From the NCBI GenBank assembly GCA_001777015.1, contig MFCV01000025.1, positions 1 to 43,631 of the forward strand: DNA of 43,631 nt, written 5' to 3'. Positions within the stretch are counted from its first letter, which is position 1. Every line of letters starts with the position of its first letter. A model generated the notes under the pieces. That model was not told the DNA's origin, did no database searches, and saw only the letters and a list, made by a program, of their open reading frames with translations. Source of the stretch: Candidatus Daviesbacteria bacterium RIFCSPHIGHO2_02_FULL_36_13 (GTDB lineage Bacteria > Patescibacteriota > Microgenomatia > Daviesbacterales > UBA10151). Shown here one piece after another: positions 2-40,671 of the stretch. The position numbers were made by a program, and so were the translations under genes.

Positions 2-1474
2 GACACAATCTATTACTATAAAGTTTCAGCTGTTAATTCAATTGGCGAGGGGCCAAAAGGCAATGAGTCCTCTGCAACACCTTCTGCTCCACAATCTCCT
101 CCTAATACACCCACTCAATTAACTGCCACTTCTGTATCTTCCACCCAAATTAACCTGTCCTGGACTGCTCCAACCACTGGCGGACCTCCTACTACCTATA
201 AAATTTTAAGGTGCAGCGGCAGTACTGTTTGTACCCCGACTGCACCGGAAATAGATACAGTCACTGCCCCAACTGTTACCTATAATAATACTTCCCTTAC
301 TTGTAACAATGGCTATACTTATGCAGTAGTAGCCTCTAATAGCGGTGGAGATTCAGCTATTTCTAGTAGAGCCGCAGCAGCCCTGGCTTGTCCTTCTTCT
401 ACTTCTATTGTCTATGGGGATGCTTCAAGTGGTGGATCGCAAAGTTCTATTATTATTGGTGCAGATGGATTCCCTGTAGTTGTTTACGCGAGTACTGGAT
501 ACCGGTTAAAGATATTAAAATGCGGTAATACCAGCTGTTCCGCAGGCAATATTGTTAGAACACCTTCAAATGAAGCAATATATCATTCTATTGCCATAGG
601 TACAGATAACAATCCTGTTATTGCCTATACTGAAGCACCGTATCCGAATAACTATCTAAAGGTGGGACACTGCATAGATGCCAGTTGCTCTAACTGGAAT
701 GTATCTATAGTAGATTCAGGCAGTGGTGATTTTACTGGCTATTACCCCACTATCACTAAATCTTCCAGCGGATTACCTATGATTGGCTATTACCAACAAC
801 CGGGTCAAAACCAAAACCTTAAATTTGCCCAGTGTGCTAATAATGACTGTTCTTCCAGAACTATCAATACTGTAGCCTCTGGCAATGGTAGTGGCGGCGC
901 TGGCAACGGCCTTATTAAAGGCTCTAACGGTAATCCGGTCATTGCCTATTCGGCTAACGTATTAGGTCAAAATAAATTAGCTGTCTGCGCTGATGCGAAT
1001 TGCTCTTCCAGTACTATCAATACTATTGATACATCTGCAAACTTCAGCCTTATATTCAACTCCGTTGCCATTAGCACAGATACCTTCCCTATCATAGCTT
1101 ATGTTGAAAATGGCGGGACGGTTTTGAAAGTAGCCAAATGCACCAATGCCAGCTGCTCTGCTAAAACTATCACTGTTGTTGACTCATCCGGCAGCTTCAA
1201 TGGAACATCTATGGCTATCCTCCCATCAACCGGCTTTCCGGTCATTGCCTATTTTGATTTACCTTCTCAATCCCTTAAAGTACTAAAATGCGGCAATACT
1301 AATTGTTCTTCTGGCAATACCATTAGTTTCGTTGATGGCGGTAAGGTGGGTGTTTTTAGCTCCTCTCCTTATTTCATGGCTATTGGTACGGATGGGTTTC
1401 CCGTCATTTCATACCTGGATAATGTTGCCTGGAAGCTTAAAATAGCCAAGTGCAGTAATGGAGCCTGCAACTAA
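2..1474 (+). CDS. Partial (5' truncated) secreted/surface protein: FN3-like domains followed by about seven ~45-aa repeats with a Cys-x4-Cys motif
   Basis: Frame open from position 2 (DTIYYYKVSAVNSIGEGPKG...) and continuous with the listed ORF 662..1474; FN3-like 'INLSWTAP...TYKILR'; repeats LKILKCGNTSC, LKVGHCIDASC, LKFAQCANNDC, NKLAVCADANC, LKVAKCTNASC, LKVLKCGNTNC, LKIAKCSNGAC. Confidence 0.75.
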   Translation, partial: DTIYYYKVSAVNSIGEGPKGNESSATPSAPQSPPNTPTQLTATSVSSTQINLSWTAPTTGGPPTTYKILRCSGSTVCTPTAPEIDTVTAPTVTYNNTSLTCNNGYTYAVVASNSGGDSAISSRAAAALACPSSTSIVYGDASSGGSQSSIIIGADGFPVVVYASTGYRLKILKCGNTSCSAGNIVRTPSNEAIYHSIAIGTDNNPVIAYTEAPYPNNYLKVGHCIDASCSNWNVSIVDSGSGDFTGYYPTITKSSSGLPMIGYYQQPGQNQNLKFAQCANNDCSSRTINTVASGNGSGGAGNGLIKGSNGNPVIAYSANVLGQNKLAVCADANCSSSTINTIDTSANFSLIFNSVAISTDTFPIIAYVENGGTVLKVAKCTNASCSAKTITVVDSSGSFNGTSMAILPSTGFPVIAYFDLPSQSLKVLKCGNTNCSSGNTISFVDGGKVGVFSSSPYFMAIGTDGFPVISYLDNVAWKLKIAKCSNGACN

Positions 1475-3428: not shown

Positions 3429-3430
3429 AA

Positions 3431-3490
3431 ATTTCTAATTTCTAATTTCTAATTTCTAAACTCTCTTAGAGCACTTAGAAATTAGGTCAA
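3431..3490. repeat. Heptanucleotide array (ATTTCTA)x4 with inverted partner TTAGAAATTAGG
   Basis: Four perfect copies at 3431..3458; inverted partner TAGAAATTAGG from 3476; between the polyprenyl synthase stop and uppS start. Confidence 0.85.
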
Positions 3491-3500
3491 TTAGGTTAAT

Positions 3501-4328
3501 TTATTTGTTCCTTCCCATCATATATTCTGTCATTTCTTTTAAAATTATTTTAAATCTGGCATTACCAGTGATATCATCTATCATCTCTTTGGCCTCAGCA
3601 GTATACTTTAATGCCTCTTTTTTTGCAGTCTCAATATCTGCTATCTCTTTATCTAAGATATCATCCTGTATTTGAAAAGCAATTCCTAATTTCTCCCCAA
3701 ATTCTTTTATCCCGCGAAACTCTGGCGAAGTGGGATCCATTCCTGCCAATATTGCCCCCATCTGTAAGGGACCCGCAACAGTATATTTAGCTGTTTTGTA
3801 TAAACGGATGAATTCAATTTCGCTTTTGTCCTCCTCCACATCCAATATTTGTCCAAATCCTGTATTGATAACCATTTCTGAAAGAAAGTTTATAGCTTTA
3901 ATTTTTACTTCCCCTAAAAAGTTAGCCTCAGAAATTAATTTTATAGGTAAATATAGTCCAATATCCCCAACATTTATAGCTTGTGGTATTCCTAATAATT
4001 TATAAAGACTGGGTTGACCGCGCCTCTCCTCGCTTTTATCCATAATGTCATCATGGATTAGGAAAGCTGTATGTAAAATCTCCAGAGCTGAGGCCACCCT
4101 TAATACGTCATTGCGAAGGTTCGGAGAACCTGAAGCAATCTCAAACCCAAGCTTTAGTAAAACTCCTCTTATTCTTTTGCCTCCCCGAGTAGAATTTAAA
4201 AGACCTAAGGCAAAAGGCAAAAGCTTAATATTGGTCTTTTTAGTCTCATTTAAAAACTCAGAAAGGATTAAATCCAATTCCTCATTTATTAAAGTAGCAT
4301 TTTCCTCAAGATATTTTTCGAAGACCAT
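3501..4328 (-). CDS. Polyprenyl (trans-isoprenyl diphosphate) synthase
   Basis: First Asp-rich motif LIHDDIMDKSEERRGQPS; second motif FQIQDDILD; carries an inserted EIASGSPNLRND segment. Confidence 0.92.
   Translation of the reverse strand: MVFEKYLEENATLINEELDLILSEFLNETKKTNIKLLPFALGLLNSTRGGKRIRGVLLKLGFEIASGSPNLRNDVLRVASALEILHTAFLIHDDIMDKSEERRGQPSLYKLLGIPQAINVGDIGLYLPIKLISEANFLGEVKIKAINFLSEMVINTGFGQILDVEEDKSEIEFIRLYKTAKYTVAGPLQMGAILAGMDPTSPEFRGIKEFGEKLGIAFQIQDDILDKEIADIETAKKEALKYTAEAKEMIDDITGNARFKIILKEMTEYMMGRNK
4106..4142. repeat. RND-type dispersed element, in-frame in the polyprenyl synthase gene
   Basis: CGTCATTGCGAAGGTTCGGAGAACCTGAAGCAATCTC; same ends (CGTCATTGCG...GAAGCAATCT) and same length (37 bp) as the left arm of the mutM copy at 28940. 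Confidence 0.75.
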
Positions 4329-12577: not shown

Positions 12578-13294
12578 CTATTCTATAGTTCTTTCAGGAC
12601 CCTGATTATGATAGGCCTCGATAAACTTACTAATTCTTTCTATTTCATTCACAGAAAGCTCTGAGCTTGTTGAAAGATTAAATTTATCAATTTTTGCCCA
12701 GGCAGTAATGGCAATTCTGGTATCTAAACTTGGTCTGGGAACTACAATAATCCTTTCATATTTATTTAAAAATGAGGAAAGAGAGGAAACTAATTTTTTA
12801 CAGGCATCAGATTGAAAATTAGCTGACAGTTCTATCTCTTTTGGAGGAGGATTTTGAGGAGTAAACCCACTCATTTGAGAGTCATCGGTTGTTTTCATTA
12901 TCATAAGTGGTTTTGCTGAACCTGTTGCCACATCATGAATCTCAACTGGTTCCCCTAAATGAGCATATGCACTTGTTACTAGTGACTTGTTGCTTGTTAC
13001 TTGTTTATCACAATTATAAGAAATGACAACATAGCCATGTTCAAGCGAATGAACTAAGTGACCGTCAGATATTACTCTGTCATATACTCCCTTTTTTGCC
13101 CAAACTGGAAAATGTGTGCCAGAGGTTGGAGGATTAGAATTATATTCAATCTTTGAAATATCATTTATGTGTTCTCTGCCTAAATCCTCAATCTTTGTAC
13201 CTGGTAAAGGCTTTGATGATTCTACAAAAAGCCAGGCTAAGATAGCTATAATCAAAACTGCTGAGATTACTATAACCGGAATTTTTTCTTTCAT
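12578..13294 (-). CDS. DUF3105 domain protein
   Basis: N-terminal TM; NPPTSGTHFPVWAKKGVY; HLVHSLEHGYVVISYNC. Confidence 0.82.
   Translation of the reverse strand: MKEKIPVIVISAVLIIAILAWLFVESSKPLPGTKIEDLGREHINDISKIEYNSNPPTSGTHFPVWAKKGVYDRVISDGHLVHSLEHGYVVISYNCDKQVTSNKSLVTSAYAHLGEPVEIHDVATGSAKPLMIMKTTDDSQMSGFTPQNPPPKEIELSANFQSDACKKLVSSLSSFLNKYERIIVVPRPSLDTRIAITAWAKIDKFNLSTSSELSVNEIERISKFIEAYHNQGPERTIE
12971..13005. repeat. Heptanucleotide array (ACTTGTT-like) x5, in-frame in the DUF3105 gene
   Basis: acttgtt actagtg acttgtt gcttgtt acttgtt. Confidence 0.85.
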
Positions 13295-20173: not shown

Positions 20174-23100
20174 TTATCGCACATTTCCCGCAACATACTC
20201 ATCCCAGGATTTGATTTGAAGATCATCCATTTTTTTGGAAGTTAAGGCTGAAATTAGCAGTTCTGCAGATTGTAAATTAGTAATAAGCGGTATTCCTAAA
20301 TCTATACAATTTCTTCTTATAATAAATCCATCTGTCTCCCCTTTTTCTGTTGCAGAGCCTTCTGATATATTTATAGCCAAATCAATCTCACCGTCTCTTA
20401 ATAAATCCAGCAAAGATGGATGTTTTTCCTCTGAAATTTTGTAGACTCTTTGATTTTTTATTCCTGATTCTTTTAAGAATTTATGGGTATTTTCTGTGGC
20501 ATAAATTTTAAGTCCCAAATTAATAAGCTTTTTGGCTGTAAGCAGCATATCAAGTTTGTTCTTTTGACCCCCAATCGAAAGAAATACCGATTTTTTCGGC
20601 ATCTTAAAACCGGTTGACATTAAAGATTTTAAATAGGCTTCATGCAGATCATCACCGAAACAAGCAACCTCACCAGTTGAGGACATTTCAACCCTGAGGC
20701 GCGGATCAGCACCCTTAATTCTATTAAAAGAAAACTGAGGAGCCTTAACTGCAACATAATCCAAATCTATTGTTTTAAAATCTCCAGTAATTTCCTCGCC
20801 TAACATTACTCTTGTGGCCATCTCTACAAAATTATAGCCAGTAACCTTTGAAACAAATGGAAATGACCTTGAGGCCCGCAAATTAAGCTCAATCACCATA
20901 ATCTGATTGTTCTTTGCTAAGAATTGAATATTAAAAGGACCAGTGATATTCAACTCCTTAACAATTCTTTTGGTGGCTGTTTTAATTTTTCTGACAGTTT
21001 CCAAAAATAATCTTTGGGGAGGCAAAACAATGGTGGCATCTCCACTGTGCACTCCGGCATTTTCAACATGCTCTGAAATTGCATATATCAAAAGCTCACC
21101 CCTGCTTCCAACTCCATCAATCTCAATTTCCTTTGCTCCTTCAACAAATTTTGACAAAACAACAGGATGCTCAGAGGATACTGCTGCAGCCTGCTCCAGA
21201 TATTTTTTAAGTTCTCCTTGAGAGTATGCCACATTCATAGCAGAACCGGATAGAACATAAGATGGTCTGACTAAAACCGGATAGCCAATTAATTTTGCAA
21301 ATTTTAAAGCCTCATCTATGGCTTTTACGCTCTGCCACTTAGGCTGCTCAATTTTTAGCTTATCTAAGATGTTTGAGAATTTATTTCTATCTTCTGCTCT
21401 ATCAATACTCTCAGGTGAGGTTCCCAAAATTTTGTATCCTGCCTTAAATGCCTGCATAGCCAAATTATTTGGAACCTGTCCCCCAAAGCTCAAGACTAAA
21501 CTTCCACCTTCAAGATCATAGATATCAGACACTCTTTCAAAGGTTAATTCTTCAAAATAGAGCTTATCGGCTATATCATAATCAGTTGAAACAGTTTCAG
21601 GATTGCAATTGATGATAATAGTCTCAAGCCCTTTTTTCCTTAAGGCTTGAGCCGCTGTTACAGAACACCAATCAAATTCAACAGAAGATCCAATTCTATA
21701 TGGACCTGAACCTAAAACAATCGCTTTTCGTACTTCGTTTTTAGTTGACGAATTAACGAATAACGAATCACGAACTTCCGATTCTTCCCCATGATATGTA
21801 AGATATAAATAATTAGTTTTGGCAGGATATTCAGCAGCCAAAGTATCAATATGCTTAACTTTAGGCACTATTCCATGACTTTTTCTGAATTTTCTAATCT
21901 CATCCTCACTTTTTCCCAAAGTTTTAGCAATCACCTTATCTGAAAAACCAAGTTTTTTAGCCTTTGGAATTTCTTTTAAGCTCTTCATTCCTTTTTCAAA
22001 ATTAACAATTTGTTTTAACTGATGTAAAAACCAAGGATCAATACCTGTTTGCTTATAAATATTTTCTACATTTTCACCTTTATTAAAGCTTTGAGCTATA
22101 GCAAATAATCTTTCTGCAGTTGGTAGAAGTTTTGTATCATCAATATGATTACCTAAAAGTCCATCCTGACCAGTATCAAGCATGCGGACGGCCTTCTGCA
22201 GAGCTTCCGGAAAAGACCTTCCAATTGCCATTACTTCACCCACACTTTTCATCTCAGATCCAATAGACTCTTTAGCTCCAACAAATTTTTGTAAATCCCA
22301 TCTTGGAATTTTAACCACCAAATAATCTAAGGCTGGCTCAAAAAATGCAGAGGTAGAATGTGTTACAGAATTTTTAAGCTCAGGAAGGTTATACCCTAGC
22401 CCAATTTTGGCAGCAATATAAGCTAAAGGATATCCTGTGGCCTTAGAAGCCAGCGCTGATGACCTAGAAAGCCTGGCATTAACCTCAATCACTCTATAAT
22501 CATTAGTTTTAGGATCAAGGGCAAATTGGATATTACACTCCCCTACAATCCCTAAATGCTCAATCACTTTTAGAGAGAGTCTTCTTAACATGTGGTATTG
22601 AAAATTATTTAAAGTTTGAGATGGGGCAACCACAATTGATTCCCCTGTATGAATTCCCAAGGGATCAAAATTTTCCATATTACAAACAGTGATTTTATTA
22701 CCCATTTTGTCTCTGACAATTTCATACTCAATCTCTTTCCAATGCCTTAAGTATTCTTCAACTGCTATTTGTGAAGTATGCTTTAGCGCATTTCCTGCCA
22801 TTTTTGTAAGTTCTTCTTTATTCTCACAAACTCCTGACCCCAAGCCTCCTAGAGAAAAACCAGATCTTATTAAAAGTGGGTATCCTAATTTTTCACCAAT
22901 TTTTAATGCCTGCTCTACAGTTTTTGCAAAACCACCCTTTGGTACTTTGACGTCAACTGAGGCAAGCTCTTTAGCAAAAATTTCTCTGTCTTCTGTAATT
23001 TGAATACTCTTTACAGGTGTTCCTAAAACTTTAACTCCATATTTTTTAAAGATTCCTGATTTTTCTAAAGCCAGTCCGCAGTTTAAGGCTGTTTGACCTC

Positions 23101-23353
23101 CAAATGATAGAAAGATTCCGTCAATTTTTTCTTTTTGGATTACTTTTTCTACAAAATATGGGGTGACAGGAAGAAAATAAATTTTAGAAGCCAAATCTTT
23201 TGAGGTCTGAATAGTGGCTATATTAGGATTTATTAAAACAGTCTCAATTCCTTCTTCTTTTAAGGCTTTTAAGGCTTGGGAACCAGAGTAATCAAACTCT
23301 CCTGCTTCCCCAATCTTTAATGCTCCTGATCCCAAAACAAGAATCTTTTTCAT
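20174..23353 (-). CDS. carB: Carbamoyl-phosphate synthase large subunit
   Basis: 1059 aa, two ATP-grasp halves; LVLGSGALKIGEAGEFDYSGSQA; IVLGSGPYRIGSSVEFDWCSV. Confidence 0.97.
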   Translation of the reverse strand: MKKILVLGSGALKIGEAGEFDYSGSQALKALKEEGIETVLINPNIATIQTSKDLASKIYFLPVTPYFVEKVIQKEKIDGIFLSFGGQTALNCGLALEKSGIFKKYGVKVLGTPVKSIQITEDREIFAKELASVDVKVPKGGFAKTVEQALKIGEKLGYPLLIRSGFSLGGLGSGVCENKEELTKMAGNALKHTSQIAVEEYLRHWKEIEYEIVRDKMGNKITVCNMENFDPLGIHTGESIVVAPSQTLNNFQYHMLRRLSLKVIEHLGIVGECNIQFALDPKTNDYRVIEVNARLSRSSALASKATGYPLAYIAAKIGLGYNLPELKNSVTHSTSAFFEPALDYLVVKIPRWDLQKFVGAKESIGSEMKSVGEVMAIGRSFPEALQKAVRMLDTGQDGLLGNHIDDTKLLPTAERLFAIAQSFNKGENVENIYKQTGIDPWFLHQLKQIVNFEKGMKSLKEIPKAKKLGFSDKVIAKTLGKSEDEIRKFRKSHGIVPKVKHIDTLAAEYPAKTNYLYLTYHGEESEVRDSLFVNSSTKNEVRKAIVLGSGPYRIGSSVEFDWCSVTAAQALRKKGLETIIINCNPETVSTDYDIADKLYFEELTFERVSDIYDLEGGSLVLSFGGQVPNNLAMQAFKAGYKILGTSPESIDRAEDRNKFSNILDKLKIEQPKWQSVKAIDEALKFAKLIGYPVLVRPSYVLSGSAMNVAYSQGELKKYLEQAAAVSSEHPVVLSKFVEGAKEIEIDGVGSRGELLIYAISEHVENAGVHSGDATIVLPPQRLFLETVRKIKTATKRIVKELNITGPFNIQFLAKNNQIMVIELNLRASRSFPFVSKVTGYNFVEMATRVMLGEEITGDFKTIDLDYVAVKAPQFSFNRIKGADPRLRVEMSSTGEVACFGDDLHEAYLKSLMSTGFKMPKKSVFLSIGGQKNKLDMLLTAKKLINLGLKIYATENTHKFLKESGIKNQRVYKISEEKHPSLLDLLRDGEIDLAINISEGSATEKGETDGFIIRRNCIDLGIPLITNLQSAELLISALTSKKMDDLQIKSWDEYVAGNVR
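21724..21774. repeat. Heptanucleotide palindromic element, in-frame in carB
   Basis: cttttcg tacttcg ... gacgaat taacgaa taacgaa tcacgaa; encodes EVRDSLFVNSSTKNEVRKA. Confidence 0.8.
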
Positions 23354-24429
23354 AATTTCAAATATTCATCAAAAAGTACTCCTCCATCAAATGGCCCTGG
23401 GTTGGCCTCAGGGTGAAACTGAACTGCCATAAAAGGTTTGGTTTTATGTTTTATTCCTTCATTTGTCCCATCGTTTAAATTAACAAACCACTCTTCCCAA
23501 TCCTGGCCCATAGATTTCATATCAACAGCAAAGCCATGATTTTGGGAAGTTATGATGGCTCTTTTTGTTTTTATATCCTGCACCGGTTGATTTTGTCCTC
23601 TGTGTCCAAACTTAAGCTTGTAAGTATTTCCCCCTGCAGCTAAAGCCAAAATCTGAGAGCCTAAACATATTCCAAAAGTTGGAATACCTTTTTCTAGAAT
23701 CTTTTCAACATTGGCAATTGTAGCTCTTGCCTGTTTTGGATCTCCTGGACCATTTGAGATAAATACTCCATCAAACCCGTGGTCCTGGCGGAAGTCAGGA
23801 TCCATAACATCAAAATCCCAAGGCACTCTGGTGACTTTTGCTCCCCTTCTTACTAAACTTCTTATAATATTCATCTTTGCTCCGCAATCAATCAGTAAGA
23901 TATTCTTTCTGCCGTCACCATAAACTTCAACTCCATCACAACTTACAAAAGGTAAAACATTTCCTAAATTTGGATCAAAATCCGCTTTTCGTTCTTCGTT
24001 GTTCGTTGACTTTGCGAATGACGAATGACGAATGACGATTTTTCCAAGCATTACTCCATGTTCTCTTAGCTTAGAAGTTAAAGCTCTGGTATCAATCCCC
24101 TGTATAGCCGGTATACCTTCAGCCTTGAGCCAGGATGATAAAGTCTTTTGAGATTCAAAGTGAGATGGATTGTTAATATAATTTTGAACAATCAAACCTT
24201 TGACCTGTATTTTTTTAGATTCCCAAAATTCCTTAGATGGAACTCCATAATTTCCCTGCAAAGGATAAGTTAAAACTAAAATCTGACCAAAATACGAAGG
24301 ATCAGTGAGACCCTCAGGATACCCCACCATTCCAGTATTAAAAACTACTTCCCCTGAGCTAGATTCCTCTGCTCCAAAACTTTCCCCTAAAAAAACTGTC
24401 CCATCGGACAGAATCAACTTACCTTGCAC
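23350..24429 (-). CDS. carA: Carbamoyl-phosphate synthase small subunit
   Basis: VFLGESFGAEESSSGEVVFNTGMVGY; FGICLGSQILALAAGG; AVQFHPEANPGP. Confidence 0.97.
   Translation of the reverse strand: MQGKLILSDGTVFLGESFGAEESSSGEVVFNTGMVGYPEGLTDPSYFGQILVLTYPLQGNYGVPSKEFWESKKIQVKGLIVQNYINNPSHFESQKTLSSWLKAEGIPAIQGIDTRALTSKLREHGVMLGKIVIRHSSFAKSTNNEERKADFDPNLGNVLPFVSCDGVEVYGDGRKNILLIDCGAKMNIIRSLVRRGAKVTRVPWDFDVMDPDFRQDHGFDGVFISNGPGDPKQARATIANVEKILEKGIPTFGICLGSQILALAAGGNTYKLKFGHRGQNQPVQDIKTKRAIITSQNHGFAVDMKSMGQDWEEWFVNLNDGTNEGIKHKTKPFMAVQFHPEANPGPFDGGVLFDEYLKL
23985..24040. repeat. Heptanucleotide palindromic element, in-frame in carA
   Basis: cttttcg ttcttcg ttgttcg ttgactt / gcgaat gacgaat gacgaat gacgatt; encodes IVIRHSSFAKSTNNEERKAD. 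Confidence 0.85.
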
Positions 24430-25496: not shown

Positions 25497-25781
25497 ATGG
25501 CCAAGAAATCCAAACCCTTTCATAGAGAATTTTTAAGTCAGCTTATTACCCTATCTACTTCAGCTTTTGGTCTGGCTGCTGCCTTAGCTTGGAATGAAAC
25601 TATCCAAAAAGTTGTTAAAGATTTTATTGAACCCTCACTTCCCGGATCAGGTTTACTTTCCCAATTTATTTATGCATTATTGGTAACTCTTCTTGCAGTT
25701 TTAATCACATATCATCTTTCCAAGCTTGCATCTGATTGGTCAAAGGAAGAAAGCAGTGCTGTTGATGAACCTAAGGAATAA
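25497..25781 (+). CDS. Small membrane protein, DUF5654-like
   Basis: 94 aa, two TM segments; FLSQLITLSTSAFGLAAALAWNETIQ. Confidence 0.7.
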   Translation: MAKKSKPFHREFLSQLITLSTSAFGLAAALAWNETIQKVVKDFIEPSLPGSGLLSQFIYALLVTLLAVLITYHLSKLASDWSKEESSAVDEPKE

Positions 25782-26820
25782 TTTTTCCATTCTCCACCTT
25801 TAGAATTCTGGCTAAATCTAGGAATTCCTGGGGAATATTTTCTAGTTCTACTGTAGCTATAATTGTCTGCTGTTTTCCTACAATATCCACAACATGCGCT
25901 CTGTGAGAAGCATCTAGTTCTGAGAAAACATCATCCAGCAGCAATATTGGGCGCTTACCCAATTTAATAGCCATATATTCAAGCTGAGCCAGCTTAAAAG
26001 CTAAAGTGGCTGTTCTTTGTTCTCCCCTTGAACCATGAGTAGCCATACTTCTTCCTTCTAAAATTATTGAAAAATCATCCCTATGTGGTCCAATTAAGGT
26101 CTGTGCTGATGCCAATTCCCTACCATTAATTTCTTGTAGCTTTTCTACTGAAACCTCACTTTGAAAGTATTCAAATTTAAATTCTCCTAAAGGCGTACTG
26201 AGTTGGTTTATGAATTCAAAAAATTCCTTACGTTTACCGCTTACTATTTTCCCTTTTTCCACAAGTCCATTTGTCCAGTAATCTAGCTCATCTACCTTAC
26301 CCTGCCCTTCTCTTATTCTTTTTAAAACTTTATTTCTGGATGTAAGATAGTCACCGTATAAAGTTAAAGCCTTTTTGTATTCCTGATCAATTTGAGCCAA
26401 GCTCAAATCTAAATGCCATCTTCGTAATGCAGGTGAACCTGTAATCATATTGATATCCTGAGGATAAAAGATAACTGCAGGAAGATTGCCTATAAAATCA
26501 TAAACTTTCTTTCCTATTCCATTAATTAAAACTTTCTTTCTAAAGATTACCTCATCTGTGGGGTGATTAATCACCACTAAAAGCTCTGTTTCTCCATCAA
26601 TAAATCCCTCTACCCTACTAAACTCCTCCCCATCTTTTATTAACTCCTCATCTCTTTCCACTCTTAAGGATTTGGTGGTAGATAAAAGATAAATTGACTC
26701 TAAAAGATTTGATTTCCCTGCAGCATTATTACCTATTAGAACTGTCTGACGTTTGTCAAAGTCTAGGGTAAGAGCTGAGTAATTCCGAAAGTTAGTCAAA
26801 TTTATTTGCTTTAAAACCAT
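25771..26820 (-). CDS. recF: DNA replication and repair protein RecF
   Basis: LTNFRNYSALTLDFD; IGNNAAGKSNLLESIYLLS; THGSRGEQRTATLAFKLAQ; ILLLDDVFSELDASHR. Confidence 0.95.
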   Translation of the reverse strand: MVLKQINLTNFRNYSALTLDFDKRQTVLIGNNAAGKSNLLESIYLLSTTKSLRVERDEELIKDGEEFSRVEGFIDGETELLVVINHPTDEVIFRKKVLINGIGKKVYDFIGNLPAVIFYPQDINMITGSPALRRWHLDLSLAQIDQEYKKALTLYGDYLTSRNKVLKRIREGQGKVDELDYWTNGLVEKGKIVSGKRKEFFEFINQLSTPLGEFKFEYFQSEVSVEKLQEINGRELASAQTLIGPHRDDFSIILEGRSMATHGSRGEQRTATLAFKLAQLEYMAIKLGKRPILLLDDVFSELDASHRAHVVDIVGKQQTIIATVELENIPQEFLDLARILKVENGKIIP

Positions 26821-26848
26821 AATTCATAATTCATAATTCTTAATTCTT
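26821..26848. repeat. Heptanucleotide array (AATTCAT)x2(AATTCTT)x2 between recF and the MFS gene
   Basis: aattcat aattcat aattctt aattctt; abuts the recF start codon and spans the MFS stop codon. Confidence 0.75.
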
Positions 26849-28277: not shown

Positions 28278-29195
28278 TTAGCCCTGGCAGGCGGGACAGA
28301 AAAATGTTCCTCTTCCACCTAGTTGGATCTTTTTTATTTCCGAACCACAAACCTTGCAGGGCTTTTTATCTTTTCCATAAACATATGCATAATCCAAAAA
28401 GTAACCCTTCCTGCCCTCAGCATCTACAAAGTGAGCCCTGGTTGCTCCTCCATATTTTATTCCTGCCTTGAGAGATTTTACTATTCCAGAATGCAATGCT
28501 TTAAATTGTTCATCTATCATTTGTCCAACCTTAGTCCTAGGATCTATTCCTGCATCAAAACAAGCCTCAGAGGCATAGATATTTCCTATACCAGAGACCA
28601 CAGCTTGATCCAAAATAGCCACTTTAACAGGCATATTTTTGTGTCTTAACAAGTTATTCTTCAGTATTTGCCAAGTAAATCCCTTTTCGAGGGGCTCAGG
28701 TCCCAGTCTCCCGAATAAATTCTGTACTCTTAATTCTTCACTCTGCATTACCTTCACCCAACCAAACCTTCTCTGATCATTAAAATATAATTTTGAACCA
28801 TTACTAAAAGTAAAAATTACCCTAGTATGAGAATTTGGCAGGGCTTTTAACATATCTGGAGTTGGATGACCCCCAATGAAACGCTTTCCATTATCGTAAA
28901 TTAACTGACCAGTCATTTTAAGATGAAATAACAAAACAACGTCATTGCGAGGAGCCGAAGGCAACGAAGCAATCTCTGAATTGGGATTGCTTCGCTTCGC
29001 TCGCAATGACGGAGTTAGTTCCACTCCTAATATTTTAGCTCTTCTCCATACTTTGAGTACTTTCCTACCCTGTAGTCTTTTGCTATCACCTAAAAAGGAT
29101 TTAGGTTGAATAACTTCTACTCCCTTAATTTTAAGTCCAATAATTTTTTTAGAAAGGCCTAAACGAATTGTTTCAACCTCTGGTAGCTCCGGCAT
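28278..29195 (-). CDS. mutM: Formamidopyrimidine-DNA glycosylase
   Basis: N-terminal PELPEVETIR; LLFHLKMTGQL; VSGIGNIYASEACF; C-terminal zinc finger CKVCGSEIKKIQLGGRGTFFCPACQ. Confidence 0.96.
   Translation of the reverse strand: MPELPEVETIRLGLSKKIIGLKIKGVEVIQPKSFLGDSKRLQGRKVLKVWRRAKILGVELTPSLRAKRSNPNSEIASLPSAPRNDVVLLFHLKMTGQLIYDNGKRFIGGHPTPDMLKALPNSHTRVIFTFSNGSKLYFNDQRRFGWVKVMQSEELRVQNLFGRLGPEPLEKGFTWQILKNNLLRHKNMPVKVAILDQAVVSGIGNIYASEACFDAGIDPRTKVGQMIDEQFKALHSGIVKSLKAGIKYGGATRAHFVDAEGRKGYFLDYAYVYGKDKKPCKVCGSEIKKIQLGGRGTFFCPACQG
28716..28743. repeat. Degenerate heptanucleotide array within mutM
   Basis: taaattc tgtactc ttaattc ttcactc; encodes SEELRVQNL. Confidence 0.45.
28940..29011. repeat. 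RND-type palindromic element, two arms, in-frame in mutM
   Basis: CGTCATTGCGAGGAGCCGAAGGCAACGAAGCAATCTC ... GGGATTGCTTCGCTTCGCTCGCAATGACGG; encodes SLRAKRSNPNSEIASLPSAPRND. Confidence 0.88.
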
Positions 29196-33961: not shown

Positions 33962-36277
33962 TCAAGCTACGCTTATGGGCTGCATCTCTCCCCAGTTTGG
34001 ACCAACTTTTAAATCTACTACTACTGGCACAGATAATTTTAGGGCATTTTCCATTTTATCTTTAACTAATTTAGCTATCTTTTCTACCTCTTTTGGGGAA
34101 ACTTCAAAAAGCAACTCATCATGTATTTGTAAAATCATTACACAGTCGTTGTTCGCTGTTCGTTTTTCGTTTTTAGCGAATGACGAATCACGATTAACAA
34201 GTTCTCTATCAATCTCTACCATGGCTTTTTTAATCATATCTGCTGCTGTTCCCTGCACGGGGTGATTTATAGCTGCCCTTTCTCCTGCTGCCTTAAACAT
34301 CCTATTAGAAGCTTGTAGCTCCGGCATATATCTTTTTCTGCCTAAAATTGTCTCCACAAATCCATTTTCATAGCCAAACTGGAGAGTTTTATTCATCCAT
34401 TCTTTAACCTTAGGAAATCCTAAAAAGTATTCTTCAATATAGGTTCTGGCAACCTCATATGGAACTTGCAGCTGTCTGCTTAAAGCATGAGGTCCTTGAC
34501 CATAAAGTGTGGCAAAATTCATGGTTTTACCTACTGTTCTTTGCTCTTTCGTAACTTTATCCAAATCTACTTTAAAAATTTTGGAGGCTGTGGCTGAATG
34601 AATATCTAAGCCTTCTTTAAAAGCTTTTTTTAAGGCTGGGTCATCAGCCAAATGTGCCATAATCCTAAGCTCAATTTGAGAATAATCAGCTGCTAGTAAA
34701 ACTTTATCCTTAGGAGCTATGAAGGCTTTTCTTATTTCTGAGCCTTTTTCCCCTTTAATTGGAATATTCTGCAGATTTGGATTGGTGGAAGAAAGTCTGC
34801 CTGTAGCTGCTCCTTCTACATTAAAAGTAGAGTGTATTCTTTTATCTTCCCCTACTGATTTTGGAAGCGCATCAATATAAGTAGAAACTAGCTTAAAAAG
34901 AGTCCTGTATTCAAGCAAGAGCGGCACTGCTGGATGAGCAGAAGATAACTCCTTTAAGGTTTCTTCATCAGTACTTCTGCCGGTTTTTGTTTTCCTAAAA
35001 ACAGGTAAATTTAACTCATCAAAAAGCACAATTTGCAACTGCTTTGGACTGTTCAGATTAAACTCATGTCCCACATTTGAGTATATTTCTTTCTCAATTT
35101 TAACTAATCGGGCTTTCAATTCTTTCCCAAGTGCCCCTAAAAACTTCAAATCCACCAAAATTCCAGTCTTAGTCATTTTTTCCAAAACAGGAGTTACTTT
35201 TAGGTCTAAGTTTGATGTAACAGTGCCTGGTCCTGTCGTTAGCTGGTCTGACTGCAAAGTACCGCTCGCCCTACCAGTTGGCTCGCTGTGAGTTTGATTC
35301 GCACCAGAGTCTTCCTTCGATTCATTTTCTTTAGAAGTCTGCTCATCTGCACTAACTACTTTGGCAGTTTCAGACTTCGCTACGCCACCCGGCAATAATG
35401 AAAGTCTATTTATTAGGCTTTTAAATTCAAGCTCTTCAAATAAATCCCTAATCTTTTCAATTTTATAATCATGAGTCACACACATCTTTAAATCTAGTTT
35501 TATAGGAGCATCAAGATCTAAAGTAGCTAGCTTTTTACTCATCACAGCTGATTCTGCTCCTTCAGCCAGCAGTTTTTGCATTCTTTCAGGCAAGGTTTTT
35601 ATATTTTTAGGATCATAAATTTTTTCTACTGTCCCAAACTGATGAATTAACTTTGTGGCTGAGACATCCCCTATCCCATTAACCCCTGGAATATTATCAG
35701 AGGCATCTCCAGCCAAAGCTTTATAATCAATTAGTTGAATTGGAGAAAAACCATACTTGGCCGCAAATTCTTCCTCACCATAAAGCCCTACATCTTGTAA
35801 AGTCTTTTTAGGCATAAAAACTTTAAGTTTTTTTGAGATCAGCTGCATAATATCTCTATCCCCCGTGACCACTACCACTTCCAGGTTTTTCTCTTTTTGG
35901 GCTTGTTTAGCTAGAGTTCCAATCAAATCATCAGCCTCATATCCAGATAATTTAAACTCAGCAATATTAAAAGCTTTTGTTATTTCAAAAACCCTTTTGT
36001 ATTGAGAAGTTAAACCATCATCTGTAGGGCCCCTAGTGGCTTTATATTGGGCATAAGCCTGATGTCTGAATGTTGGACCCTTTTCATCCCAAGCTATAGC
36101 TAAATAATCTGGCTTAAGCTCTGAAATTACCTTTAAAATCATAGCTGAAAAGCCATAAACAGCATTAACCAGTTCCCCTTTTGAAGTAGTAAAAGGAGGG
36201 GTGGCATGATAAGCCCTATGAAGAAGAGCATTTCCATCAACGAGAACCAACTTCGTTGGTAAACCAAGTCTTTTCAT
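33962..36277 (-). CDS. polA: DNA polymerase I without 3'-5' exonuclease domain
   Basis: 5'-3' exonuclease domain (LVDGNALLHRAYHA; YEADDLIGTLA; GDRDIMQL; GDASDNIPGVNGIG); polymerase motifs DYSQIELRIMAHL, RTVGKTMNFATLYGQG, QIHDELLFE; only a low-complexity linker between them. Confidence 0.96.
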   Translation of the reverse strand: MKRLGLPTKLVLVDGNALLHRAYHATPPFTTSKGELVNAVYGFSAMILKVISELKPDYLAIAWDEKGPTFRHQAYAQYKATRGPTDDGLTSQYKRVFEITKAFNIAEFKLSGYEADDLIGTLAKQAQKEKNLEVVVVTGDRDIMQLISKKLKVFMPKKTLQDVGLYGEEEFAAKYGFSPIQLIDYKALAGDASDNIPGVNGIGDVSATKLIHQFGTVEKIYDPKNIKTLPERMQKLLAEGAESAVMSKKLATLDLDAPIKLDLKMCVTHDYKIEKIRDLFEELEFKSLINRLSLLPGGVAKSETAKVVSADEQTSKENESKEDSGANQTHSEPTGRASGTLQSDQLTTGPGTVTSNLDLKVTPVLEKMTKTGILVDLKFLGALGKELKARLVKIEKEIYSNVGHEFNLNSPKQLQIVLFDELNLPVFRKTKTGRSTDEETLKELSSAHPAVPLLLEYRTLFKLVSTYIDALPKSVGEDKRIHSTFNVEGAATGRLSSTNPNLQNIPIKGEKGSEIRKAFIAPKDKVLLAADYSQIELRIMAHLADDPALKKAFKEGLDIHSATASKIFKVDLDKVTKEQRTVGKTMNFATLYGQGPHALSRQLQVPYEVARTYIEEYFLGFPKVKEWMNKTLQFGYENGFVETILGRKRYMPELQASNRMFKAAGERAAINHPVQGTAADMIKKAMVEIDRELVNRDSSFAKNEKRTANNDCVMILQIHDELLFEVSPKEVEKIAKLVKDKMENALKLSVPVVVDLKVGPNWGEMQPISVA
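34146..34196. repeat. Heptanucleotide palindromic element, in-frame in polA
   Basis: tcgttgt tcgctgt tcgtttt tcgtttt / tagcgaatgacgaatcacgatt; encodes VNRDSSFAKNEKRTANND. Confidence 0.82.
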
Positions 36278-38893: not shown

Positions 38894-40069
38894 ATGAAGA
38901 TTTTATTTGGGACGGATTTGTTTTATCAAAATTTTGCAGGTTCTGTTAGTTTTATTCAATATCTGGCAAAAGGACTTATTAAAGACGGCCATCAGGTTTT
39001 TGTCATAGCACCCTCAAAAACATTTGAAAACACTATTTCTATAGAAGATGGTGTTACTGTTTATGGCATCCGCTCTGTAATTATTCCGGATGTCATATAT
39101 CCTTCACAATTTAGGATCCCAATAACAGCAGGCTCCAATAAAATCAGGACCATACTGGAGGAAGTAAAACCTGATGTTGTCAGTATTCAGGATCATTTTA
39201 TGATAGGCGGCAAAATTGCCAAAGAAAGCAGAAGATTGAATATCCCAACCGTAGGAACCAATCACTTTATGCCTGAAAATTTTATTCACTACCTTTATCC
39301 CCCTGAATTTGCCAAAGAATTTCTAAGAAAGCTTGCCTGGAAGGATTTTCTCCGTGTATATAAAAAACTTGATGTTGTCACCACTCCTACCAAAACCGCA
39401 GCTGAACTGATAAAAAATTTAGGACTAAGAAATACTATTATCCCAATCTCAAATGGTGTTGATTTAAAAAGATTTAATCCTAAAAATAATGGTCAGACTT
39501 TAAGAACAAAATACAATATTCCCCCAACTGAACCTATTATTTTATTTGTAGGAAGATTGGATAAAGAGAAGGAAATCGATGAACTGATTAAAGCTTTTGC
39601 TGAAACTTTGCATAAAATTAGGTCAAAGTTGATAATTGCAGGCAAAGGAACAGAAAGATCAAAGCTTATTAGTCTTTCGAGAAAATTGGGACTTTCAAAA
39701 GATATCATCTTCCCCGGATTTGTTCCTCACGTAGATCTTCCCTCTTTGTACGCCACAGCAGATGTATTTGCCATTGCTTCAATTGCTGAACTGCAAAGCA
39801 TTGCCACCCTTGAGGCCATGGCCTCTGGCCTCCCTGTAGTTGCAGTCAATGCCATTGCGTTGCCGGAACTTGTTCACGATGGGGAAAATGGCTATTTATT
39901 TGAAAAAGGAGATACTAAGAATCTAAGCGATAAGTTGGTAAAAATTCTAAAGGATAAGAATTTAAGGAAAAAAATGTCTAAAAAAAGCCTGGAAATTATT
40001 AAGCAACACAATATAGAAGATACTGTAAAAAAATATGAAAAAATATATGAAAAATTAGTTAAGTCCTAA
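38894..40069 (+). CDS. Glycosyltransferase family 4 (PimA-like)
   Basis: FAGSVSFIQYLAKGLIKDGHQVFVIAPS; ILFVGRLDKEKEIDELIKAF; SIAELQSIATLEAMASGLPVVAVNAIALPELV. Confidence 0.92.
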   Translation: MKILFGTDLFYQNFAGSVSFIQYLAKGLIKDGHQVFVIAPSKTFENTISIEDGVTVYGIRSVIIPDVIYPSQFRIPITAGSNKIRTILEEVKPDVVSIQDHFMIGGKIAKESRRLNIPTVGTNHFMPENFIHYLYPPEFAKEFLRKLAWKDFLRVYKKLDVVTTPTKTAAELIKNLGLRNTIIPISNGVDLKRFNPKNNGQTLRTKYNIPPTEPIILFVGRLDKEKEIDELIKAFAETLHKIRSKLIIAGKGTERSKLISLSRKLGLSKDIIFPGFVPHVDLPSLYATADVFAIASIAELQSIATLEAMASGLPVVAVNAIALPELVHDGENGYLFEKGDTKNLSDKLVKILKDKNLRKKMSKKSLEIIKQHNIEDTVKKYEKIYEKLVKS

Positions 40070-40671
40070 ACGCCTAAACATTTTTGAGCTCTTTCTTTTG
40101 TAACAATTTGCTCTGCCTGATTCAAAGCAGAACTTGAGGCTTCTTTTTTTAAAAATTCACAAGCTTTAAGTCTAGCTGGCTTTTCTATATCCGGTCTTCT
40201 TAAAATTTTATCTACTGCTGATCTGATGGATCTTTTAGCATTGTTATCTTTTAAATCCTCATGCATTTTCTGCAGAACAAAAAGATGAGAAGTTAAACTG
40301 CTTTCTATTTTTAGAGCTAACTCTCCACTGATAGTTCTTCTGTCTAAAAGAGTATTAAGATTAGATGTATACCTTTCTAAACTGGCTGGAATAAGTGAAG
40401 GGTTTTTGTCTACTAAATTTCTGGCCTCTCTTAGTCTTCTTGTGGCAAATTCCAAATGCCTGACATGTTTAACATATGGGGTTAAAGCCAGCTTTAATTC
40501 AATTTCTTCTCTAATACCTTTTATAAAATAAAAAGGGTTGGATGGATCTAAACTTGAATAACCAATATCATTTTCAGAAGCCAGTATAGCACCTAGGGTA
40601 TAGGGTATAGGGTATAGCAGGACAAAAATTATTAAACTAAACCCTAAACCCCAAACCCTAAACCCTTTCAT
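40066..40671 (-). CDS. DUF5667-like secreted protein whose signal peptide is encoded by heptanucleotide repeats
   Basis: N-terminus MKGFRVWGLGFSLIIFVLLYPIPYTLGA; mature region SSLDPSNPFYFIKGIREEIELKLALTPYVKHVRHLEFATRRLREA. Confidence 0.72.
   Translation of the reverse strand: MKGFRVWGLGFSLIIFVLLYPIPYTLGAILASENDIGYSSLDPSNPFYFIKGIREEIELKLALTPYVKHVRHLEFATRRLREARNLVDKNPSLIPASLERYTSNLNTLLDRRTISGELALKIESSLTSHLFVLQKMHEDLKDNNAKRSIRSAVDKILRRPDIEKPARLKACEFLKKEASSSALNQAEQIVTKERAQKCLGV
40594..40664. repeat. Two opposed heptanucleotide arrays (TAGGGTA)x3 and (CTAAACC)x4
   Basis: tagggta x3 at 40594..40614; ctaaacc ctaaacc ccaaacc ctaaacc at 40637..40664. Confidence 0.9.

Follow-up and report, generated by a model that had tools for sequence, protein, structure and literature searches.

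Palindromic repeats with heptanucleotide arms in loops of CarA, CarB and PolA of a Daviesbacteria genome and its relatives

Why do carA, carB and polA of one bacterium carry similar palindromic inserts in frame, and do these inserts belong to the enzymes or to repeat DNA that the enzymes tolerate? Until now, palindromic repeats inside coding sequence were regarded as a peculiarity of Rickettsia and Wolbachia, and the surplus of heptamers in bacteria as an odd, unexplained feature lying mostly between genes; the genomes studied here bring both together, as heptad palindromes refill loops of CarA, CarB, PolA, MutM and other proteins. The stretch of DNA that raised the question (the window) is contig MFCV01000025.1 of Candidatus Daviesbacteria bacterium RIFCSPHIGHO2_02_FULL_36_13, analysed over 43,631 nt. 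We consider it probable that the inserts are copies of short, non-autonomous palindromic repeats with heptanucleotide arms, dispersed through the genome and tolerated in surface loops and linkers.

Three heptad palindromes in the window

The inserts are placed as follows:

23985–24040, minus strand: carA insert, an in-frame heptad palindrome after VMLGKI in the CPSase small chain (ORF 23350–24429, minus strand), with arms at 23988–24008 (TTCGTTN, three copies) and 24013–24038 (CGAATGA, three copies)
21724–21774, minus strand: carB insert, an in-frame heptad palindrome in the linker joining the two halves (EVRDSLFVNSSTKNEVRK; ORF 20174–23353, minus strand), with arms at 21727–21744 and 21748–21774 (plus-strand element 21727–21774)
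34146–34196, minus strand: polA insert, an in-frame heptad palindrome in the loop preceding the Q[VI]HDE motif (ORF 33962–36277, minus strand)

All three are imperfect palindromes of ~50 nt with ACGAA/TTCGT heptad arms, and their coordinates and sequence agree with the original prediction, which had singled out these sites. On the plus strand, the carA element (23988–24038) reads TTCGTTCTTCGTTGTTCGTTGACTTTGCGAATGACGAATGACGAATGACGA. Allowing up to two mismatches, the pattern CGAATNACGAATNACGA matches the window six times (0.02 expected by chance; 100 shuffles gave at most one), every time within one of the three inserts. The consensus search that had been suggested for the source genome yielded 11 matches of CGAANNACGAANNACGAA across the whole 963,675 bp, with none for the backwards control. 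Each insert can fold into a hairpin of 4–5 bp helices with 2 × 2 internal loops between them, repeating every 7 nt, although the single-sequence folding z-scores are modest (−1.4 to −2.2); in the folding analysis of polA inserts described below, the window's polA insert scored −2.6.

The carA insert lies between the Pfam domains CPSase_sm_chain (1–131) and GATase (178–358). In an AlphaFold model of CarA, which is weak overall (mean pLDDT 66) and served solely for this observation, pLDDT falls below 50 at residues 135–160, so that the insert is predicted to be unstructured. The PolA loop aligns with a stretch of Taq DNA polymerase that has fewer residues. The inserts do share orientation and reading frame, as had been pointed out, but this agreement carries next to no evidential weight and we rejected the shared frame as an argument: a 7-nt unit passes all three frames every 21 nt, so that any three-unit array encodes a cyclic permutation of one peptide, and orientation inside an ORF is forced because the opposite orientation (CGAATGA) contains TGA.

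Period-seven arrays, palindromic partners and dispersed families

The phased 7-nt unit on which the original prediction was based is in large excess genome-wide. Runs of self-identity in the window number 10 at a shift of 7 (0.3 in Markov controls), compared with 0–1 at each of shifts 2–6 and 8–12. At a score of at least 11, ~334 kb of the source genome contain 28 degenerate period-7 arrays versus 0, 2 and 1 at periods 5, 6 and 8 and one in the Markov control; a lack of such arrays elsewhere in the genome, named beforehand as grounds for abandoning the idea, was thus not what we found. Family relatives (13 members, 241 kb) have 45 period-7 arrays versus 1–4, and a class-wide sample (397 kb) has 55 versus 0–10. 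Source genome and relatives were analysed as sampled stretches covering part of each genome, many from fragmented assemblies, and the single-contig genomes G012 and G049 show period-7 arrays like those of the fragmented ones. A rule of five fixed plus two variable positions holds as a tendency only, the variable positions being adjacent in 25 of 45 two-variable arrays (15 expected).

In 1.36 Mb from 80 named loci belonging to other phyla (among them Bacteroidota, Clostridia and archaea), we counted 31 arrays, or ~23 per Mb, against 115 per Mb here (170 arrays in 1.47 Mb), a figure somewhat raised because some sampled stretches were picked for ACGAA matches. Twelve of the 31 come from one contig, a 21-kb stretch of an uncultured Prevotellaceae (L086, CAMJIL010000008.1), which indicates that this style of repeat exists in Bacteroidales.

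That bacteria have an excess of heptanucleotides is established (Mrazek, Guo and Shah 2007, as cited in PMC4692102 and PMC4679880), and what was proposed as an undescribed class can therefore be no more than a variant, made up of palindromic heptads that are tied to hotspots and lie mostly within genes. The main rival explanation draws on the same background. Arrays would grow de novo in tolerant linkers by polymerase slippage in 7-nt steps, with no mobility, and similar units would reflect composition or polymerase bias. Slippage has been put forward for the bacterial heptamer excess; among long SSRs, units of seven are the commonest kind in most bacterial genomes, and a polymerase contact of 7 nt has been proposed (PMC4679880, PMC4692102). 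Heptads also occur in the Bacteroidales and Clostridia of our control loci, and local codons could have seeded the arrays in several polA inserts. Many in-gene copies are single arms that local slippage alone could produce, which counts against insertion, and many single-arm arrays are perfect, such as GGAAACT × 5 in G029 carA. We nevertheless judge a purely local origin rather unlikely, as it leaves several observations unexplained, set out below; slippage may well go on to alter the arms of inserted copies.

The first of these is palindromy. An inverted partner lies within 120 bp of 49 of the 170 arrays, versus 6 and 11 in two controls. Partners are found for 31 of 58 intergenic arrays versus 18 of the 112 in or at the ends of genes; this deficit fits a filter by stop codons and length, and would equally be expected from one-armed slippage. 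With ORFs taken as simple longest-frame calls, not curated genes, 100 arrays are deep inside ORFs (129 expected by position) and 58 are intergenic (18 expected), so genes are depleted of arrays, yet far from free of them. Inserts range from ~35 to 130 nt overall and from ~33 to 129 nt in polA, where 22 of 34 have folding z-scores below −2 relative to shuffles, showing that both arms persist, though degenerate, in many copies within genes; a hairpin is absent from several polA inserts.

The second is the clustering of units into families within genomes. Identical units make up 4.2% of within-genome pairs versus 0.8% of pairs between genomes, a value reached in none of 300 permutations; ACGAA arrays were left out of this test, since some stretches had been picked for ACGAA matches. 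In general, the heptad at a genome's carA, carB or polA site belongs to a family repeated elsewhere in that genome, as for ACGAA in the source genome, ATCAG in G025 and G030, AGTCA in G032 and G020, and GGGGAAA in G020. An exception is the GGAAACT of G029, which has no second strict-pattern copy in its own genome. G031 is rich in ACGAA heptads, with 37 matches.

Local slippage also fails to account for complete elements and for shared non-repetitive arms. In G025, complete copies of the TCAG elements have common ends (TAGCT...AGCTA), both arms and a central stem; ends of this type are not uniform among the other families. One AGAGTCA palindrome occurs both in carA (G032, G057, G059, G062) and in polA (G032, G064), with 71–85% identity over 73–80 bp, and its right arm, common to the carA and polA copies from different species, is not a perfect tandem repeat. 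An exact variant of this right arm was found in 3 of 374 genomes, all within the family, which argues against its broad horizontal spread. Viral contigs gave no match to the AGAGTCA element, a plasmid collection none to the carA element, and Rfam no credible match that would indicate an RNA family.

Reoccupation of protein loops across species

Alignment to relatives bears out the suggestion that the inserts sit in variable linkers of CarA, CarB and PolA and reveals the insert segments to be lineage-specific; both length and sequence vary, whereas peptides of equal length conserved in distant relatives would have spoken for the opposite. In aligned CarA orthologues, the linker after VMLGKI has a different heptad in nearly every family member (ACGAA in the window; elsewhere ATCAG, AAAAGTY, GGAAACT, AGTCAAG, CAAAATT, CGAAGCA or GGAAGAT); the linker is short in G004, in G031 and in most relatives beyond the family. 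The carB linker likewise carries differing heptads in the family, and the same is true of the loop preceding QVHDE in polA; in some species, GTCATTGCGAG or GTCATTCCCGC palindromes take their place in this loop. The idea of one family special to carA, carB and polA does not hold: ACGAA is one of many heptad families, with different ones dominant in each genome.

This turnover extends to a single genus. Across the 12 species of genus g26, the carA site is occupied by ATCAG, AGAGTCA, AAAGTTC, AAAGATC or GCTAAAA arrays, by one composite, or, in one case, by nothing; the polA site contains TCAG, ACGAA, TTAGCAC, TTAGCTG, CCTGTAA, AGTC or ATTCTCA as well as a GTCATTGCGAG palindrome. Of the 65 in-gene arrays in 12 gene families, each with orthologues in four or more sampled genomes, 57 fall at an aligned site where another genome has an array too; random positions gave 20 ± 4 and never more than 30 in 300 trials. 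Among the hotspots are CarA, CarB (with two sites), PolA, MutM, RecF and Pth.

Such recurrence could mean that the inserts are functional and kept by selection, either as intragenic hairpins controlling expression or recombination or as flexible linkers. The same sites are filled in most species, hairpin potential is maintained, and between two genera the polA element has diverged less than the sequence on either side of it. We nonetheless find selection for function quite improbable, given that sequence, length, fold and even presence vary within g26, that some species have empty sites, that hairpins are missing from several polA inserts, and that the host genes (carA, carB, polA, mutM, recF, pth) are unrelated. 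In genes, the heptad palindromes look like a lively, tolerated repeat element and not like part of the enzyme.

Conservation of the polA element also bears on a further alternative, in which species would have swapped gene segments by homologous exchange, and this, more than true insertion, would account for the variety at these sites. Between the window and G058, which belongs to another genus, the polA inserts are 92% identical. The adjoining flanks, however, reach only 81% and 71%, so any exchanged tract must have stopped right at the insert, and one element is present in two different genes; exchange as the main source is thus very unlikely. Beside this hotspot, near query residue 677, the polA frames of G024 (C35:11950–15630, L161; 1232 aa) and G005 (C47:48868–52272, L162; 1139 aa) have a surplus of ~420 residues or more within the polymerase domain that appears intein-like, and G058 polA (861 aa frame) looks similar.

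Proposed origin, known systems and further repeats

If the inserts are copies of dispersed repeats, the element would be a sequence of ~50–110 bp with two arms of heptanucleotide units, each with a fixed core of ~4–5 nt and 2–3 freer positions (here ACGAA+NN), copied to places throughout the chromosome by a copy-and-insert process that goes beyond local slippage. Within genes, a copy would survive only in a surface loop or linker that tolerates an in-frame, stop-free insert, and whichever family is active in a lineage would refill the same few loops repeatedly. Arms would then gain or lose 7-nt steps by slippage, and the encoded peptides would be tolerated but unused. A search for PF01797 provided no transposase for these elements, and neither a target-site duplication nor a defined target was found between species so diverged that exact insertion points are blurred; with such flanks, empty sites cannot be set base for base.

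Another possible reading makes the elements REPs mobilised by RAYT/Y1 transposases. They resemble REP/RAYT systems in being short dispersed palindromes in genomes with RAYT-like genes, and a search of 15 genomes found Y1_Tnp (PF01797) genes in 14, with up to six in each. Where readable, however, these genes have their own short flanking palindromes (CACCCCAAGGGTG, GGGTTGAACCC, CACACCGGGTGTG, GGACCGTCC) in place of heptad elements, hardly any heptad arrays lie near them, and G031, despite its abundance of ACGAA, has no PF01797 match. Mobilisation by RAYTs is consequently disfavoured, to the point of being hardly credible. The PF01797 loci themselves (L281–L310), often several per genome and each with its own flanking palindrome, are possibly a diverse set of RAYT–REP pairs in the class.

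By description, the closest functional parallel to the dispersed heptad palindromes would be the Rickettsia palindromic elements (RPEs), a likeness drawn in the original prediction and upheld here, although length differs and we do not claim membership. As in Rickettsia RPEs and Wolbachia WPEs, palindromic repeats of several families are found in frame in conserved protein genes and are absent from some orthologues; heptad inserts can also form the hairpin typical of RPEs, though not in every copy. Orthologues in different Rickettsia species bear different RPE families at one locus (PMC3767692), and RPEs are thought to be tolerated selfish DNA (PMC2229807). RPEs differ in their reported length of 100–150 bp and in comprising few families in one order, whereas the repeats described here are ~35–130 nt, phased by 7 nt, and form many genome-specific families with turnover within a genus.

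Structurally, the nearest counterpart is heptanucleotide SSRs, although these are described as mainly intergenic. The known long SSRs (cyanobacterial STRR, Xanthomonas GGGAATC, Nostoc GGGGAYT, Beggiatoaceae TAACTGA) are likewise 7-nt units in several tandem copies, in strong excess over other unit lengths and with some inverted pairs (PMC4692102, PMC4679880). They are mostly intergenic (7–11% intragenic in Xanthomonas), with one or a few units per genome; here, 100 of the 170 arrays are deep inside ORFs, and units are many, degenerate in some positions and parts of palindromes. MITEs are also small, non-autonomous, palindromic and dispersed, and some of our elements, those of G025, have common ends, but no parent transposon was identified with PF01797. 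Borg tandem repeats evolve fast and make disordered protein segments; in ORFs, all their units are divisible by three (PMC9879509), whereas a unit of 7 keeps the frame by total length only. The genomes compared here belong to a class with genomes of about 1 Mb, a size suggestive of Patescibacteria; the open-access literature searched contained no report of such repeats, whether tandem or palindromic, from that group.

A bolder reading, which we offer as a tentative possibility, is that heptad-phased palindromes may be a distinct, unrecognised mobile repeat with its own replication logic (helices of 4–5 bp, spacing of 2–3 nt, every 7 nt), occurring far beyond the class and settling again and again, each time independently, at favoured positions in core genes, DNA polymerase I among them. 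Turnover of repeats would then remake loops of essential enzymes across a whole bacterial class. Against a lineage-specific element stand the heptads of Bacteroidales and Clostridia and the presence of CGAATGA in GC-rich viral contigs, mostly as simple tandem arrays. The reoccupied sites offer a replicated test, set up by nature, of which loops in proteins can take up random insertions, and a data set for asking whether the step of 7 nt stems from slippage or from a dedicated mechanism. They also caution against reading function into every variable loop of the proteins annotated in these genomes, since such loops can be repeat DNA.

Three loci, the number originally reported, proved too few for the window, in which the mutM, polyprenyl synthetase and DUF3105 genes also contain in-frame repeats. 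Together with other repeats, these are:

28718–28759, minus strand: degenerate heptads AGAGTGA/AGAATTA, in frame in mutM (Fpg; ORF 28278–29195, minus strand)
28939–28976, minus strand: second palindrome in mutM, in frame, of the ACGTCATTGCGAG...GAAGCAATC kind, peptide SLRAKRSNPNSEIASLPSAPRNDV
4105–4142, minus strand: palindrome in the polyprenyl synthetase gene (ORF 3501–4328, minus strand), in frame, of the GTCATTGCGA...GCAATC kind, as in mutM 28939–28976
12971–13005, minus strand: degenerate AACAAGT array, five copies, within the DUF3105 gene (ORF 12578–13294, minus strand)
3430–3459: intergenic AATTTCT array, 4.3 copies, with an inverted partner at most 120 bp away
26818–26848: CATAATT/CTTAATT array in the gap between recF (25771–26820) and the upstream gene
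40594–40666: inverted pair of the CCCTA+NN family, with TAGGGTA × 3 (40594–40617) and CTAAACC × 4 (40637–40666), at the start of a DUF5667 ORF (40066–40671, minus strand)

The repeat at 28718–28759 is near the mutM hotspot, where 6 of 12 sampled genomes have arrays, the correspondence being judged by residue number. A second class of in-frame palindromes (GTCATTGCGAG...GCAATC; GTCATTCCCGC...GCGGGAATC) occupies the same protein hotspots as the heptad arrays. We observed it in the window (4105–4142, 28939–28976), in polA of G013, G014, G002, G030 and G063, in polA of G006 and in carB of G030, and it recalls the ATGAC-rich RPE-4/6/7 of Rickettsia. The CCCTA+NN heptads, which resemble telomere repeats (CCCTAAA), are common in the source genome and partly form inverted pairs (the window pair at 40594–40666; L205, L206, L207, L208, L212). 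Four in-frame repeats of ~150 nt (50 aa) at 820–1327 (ORF 662–1474, plus strand) are ordinary protein repeats.
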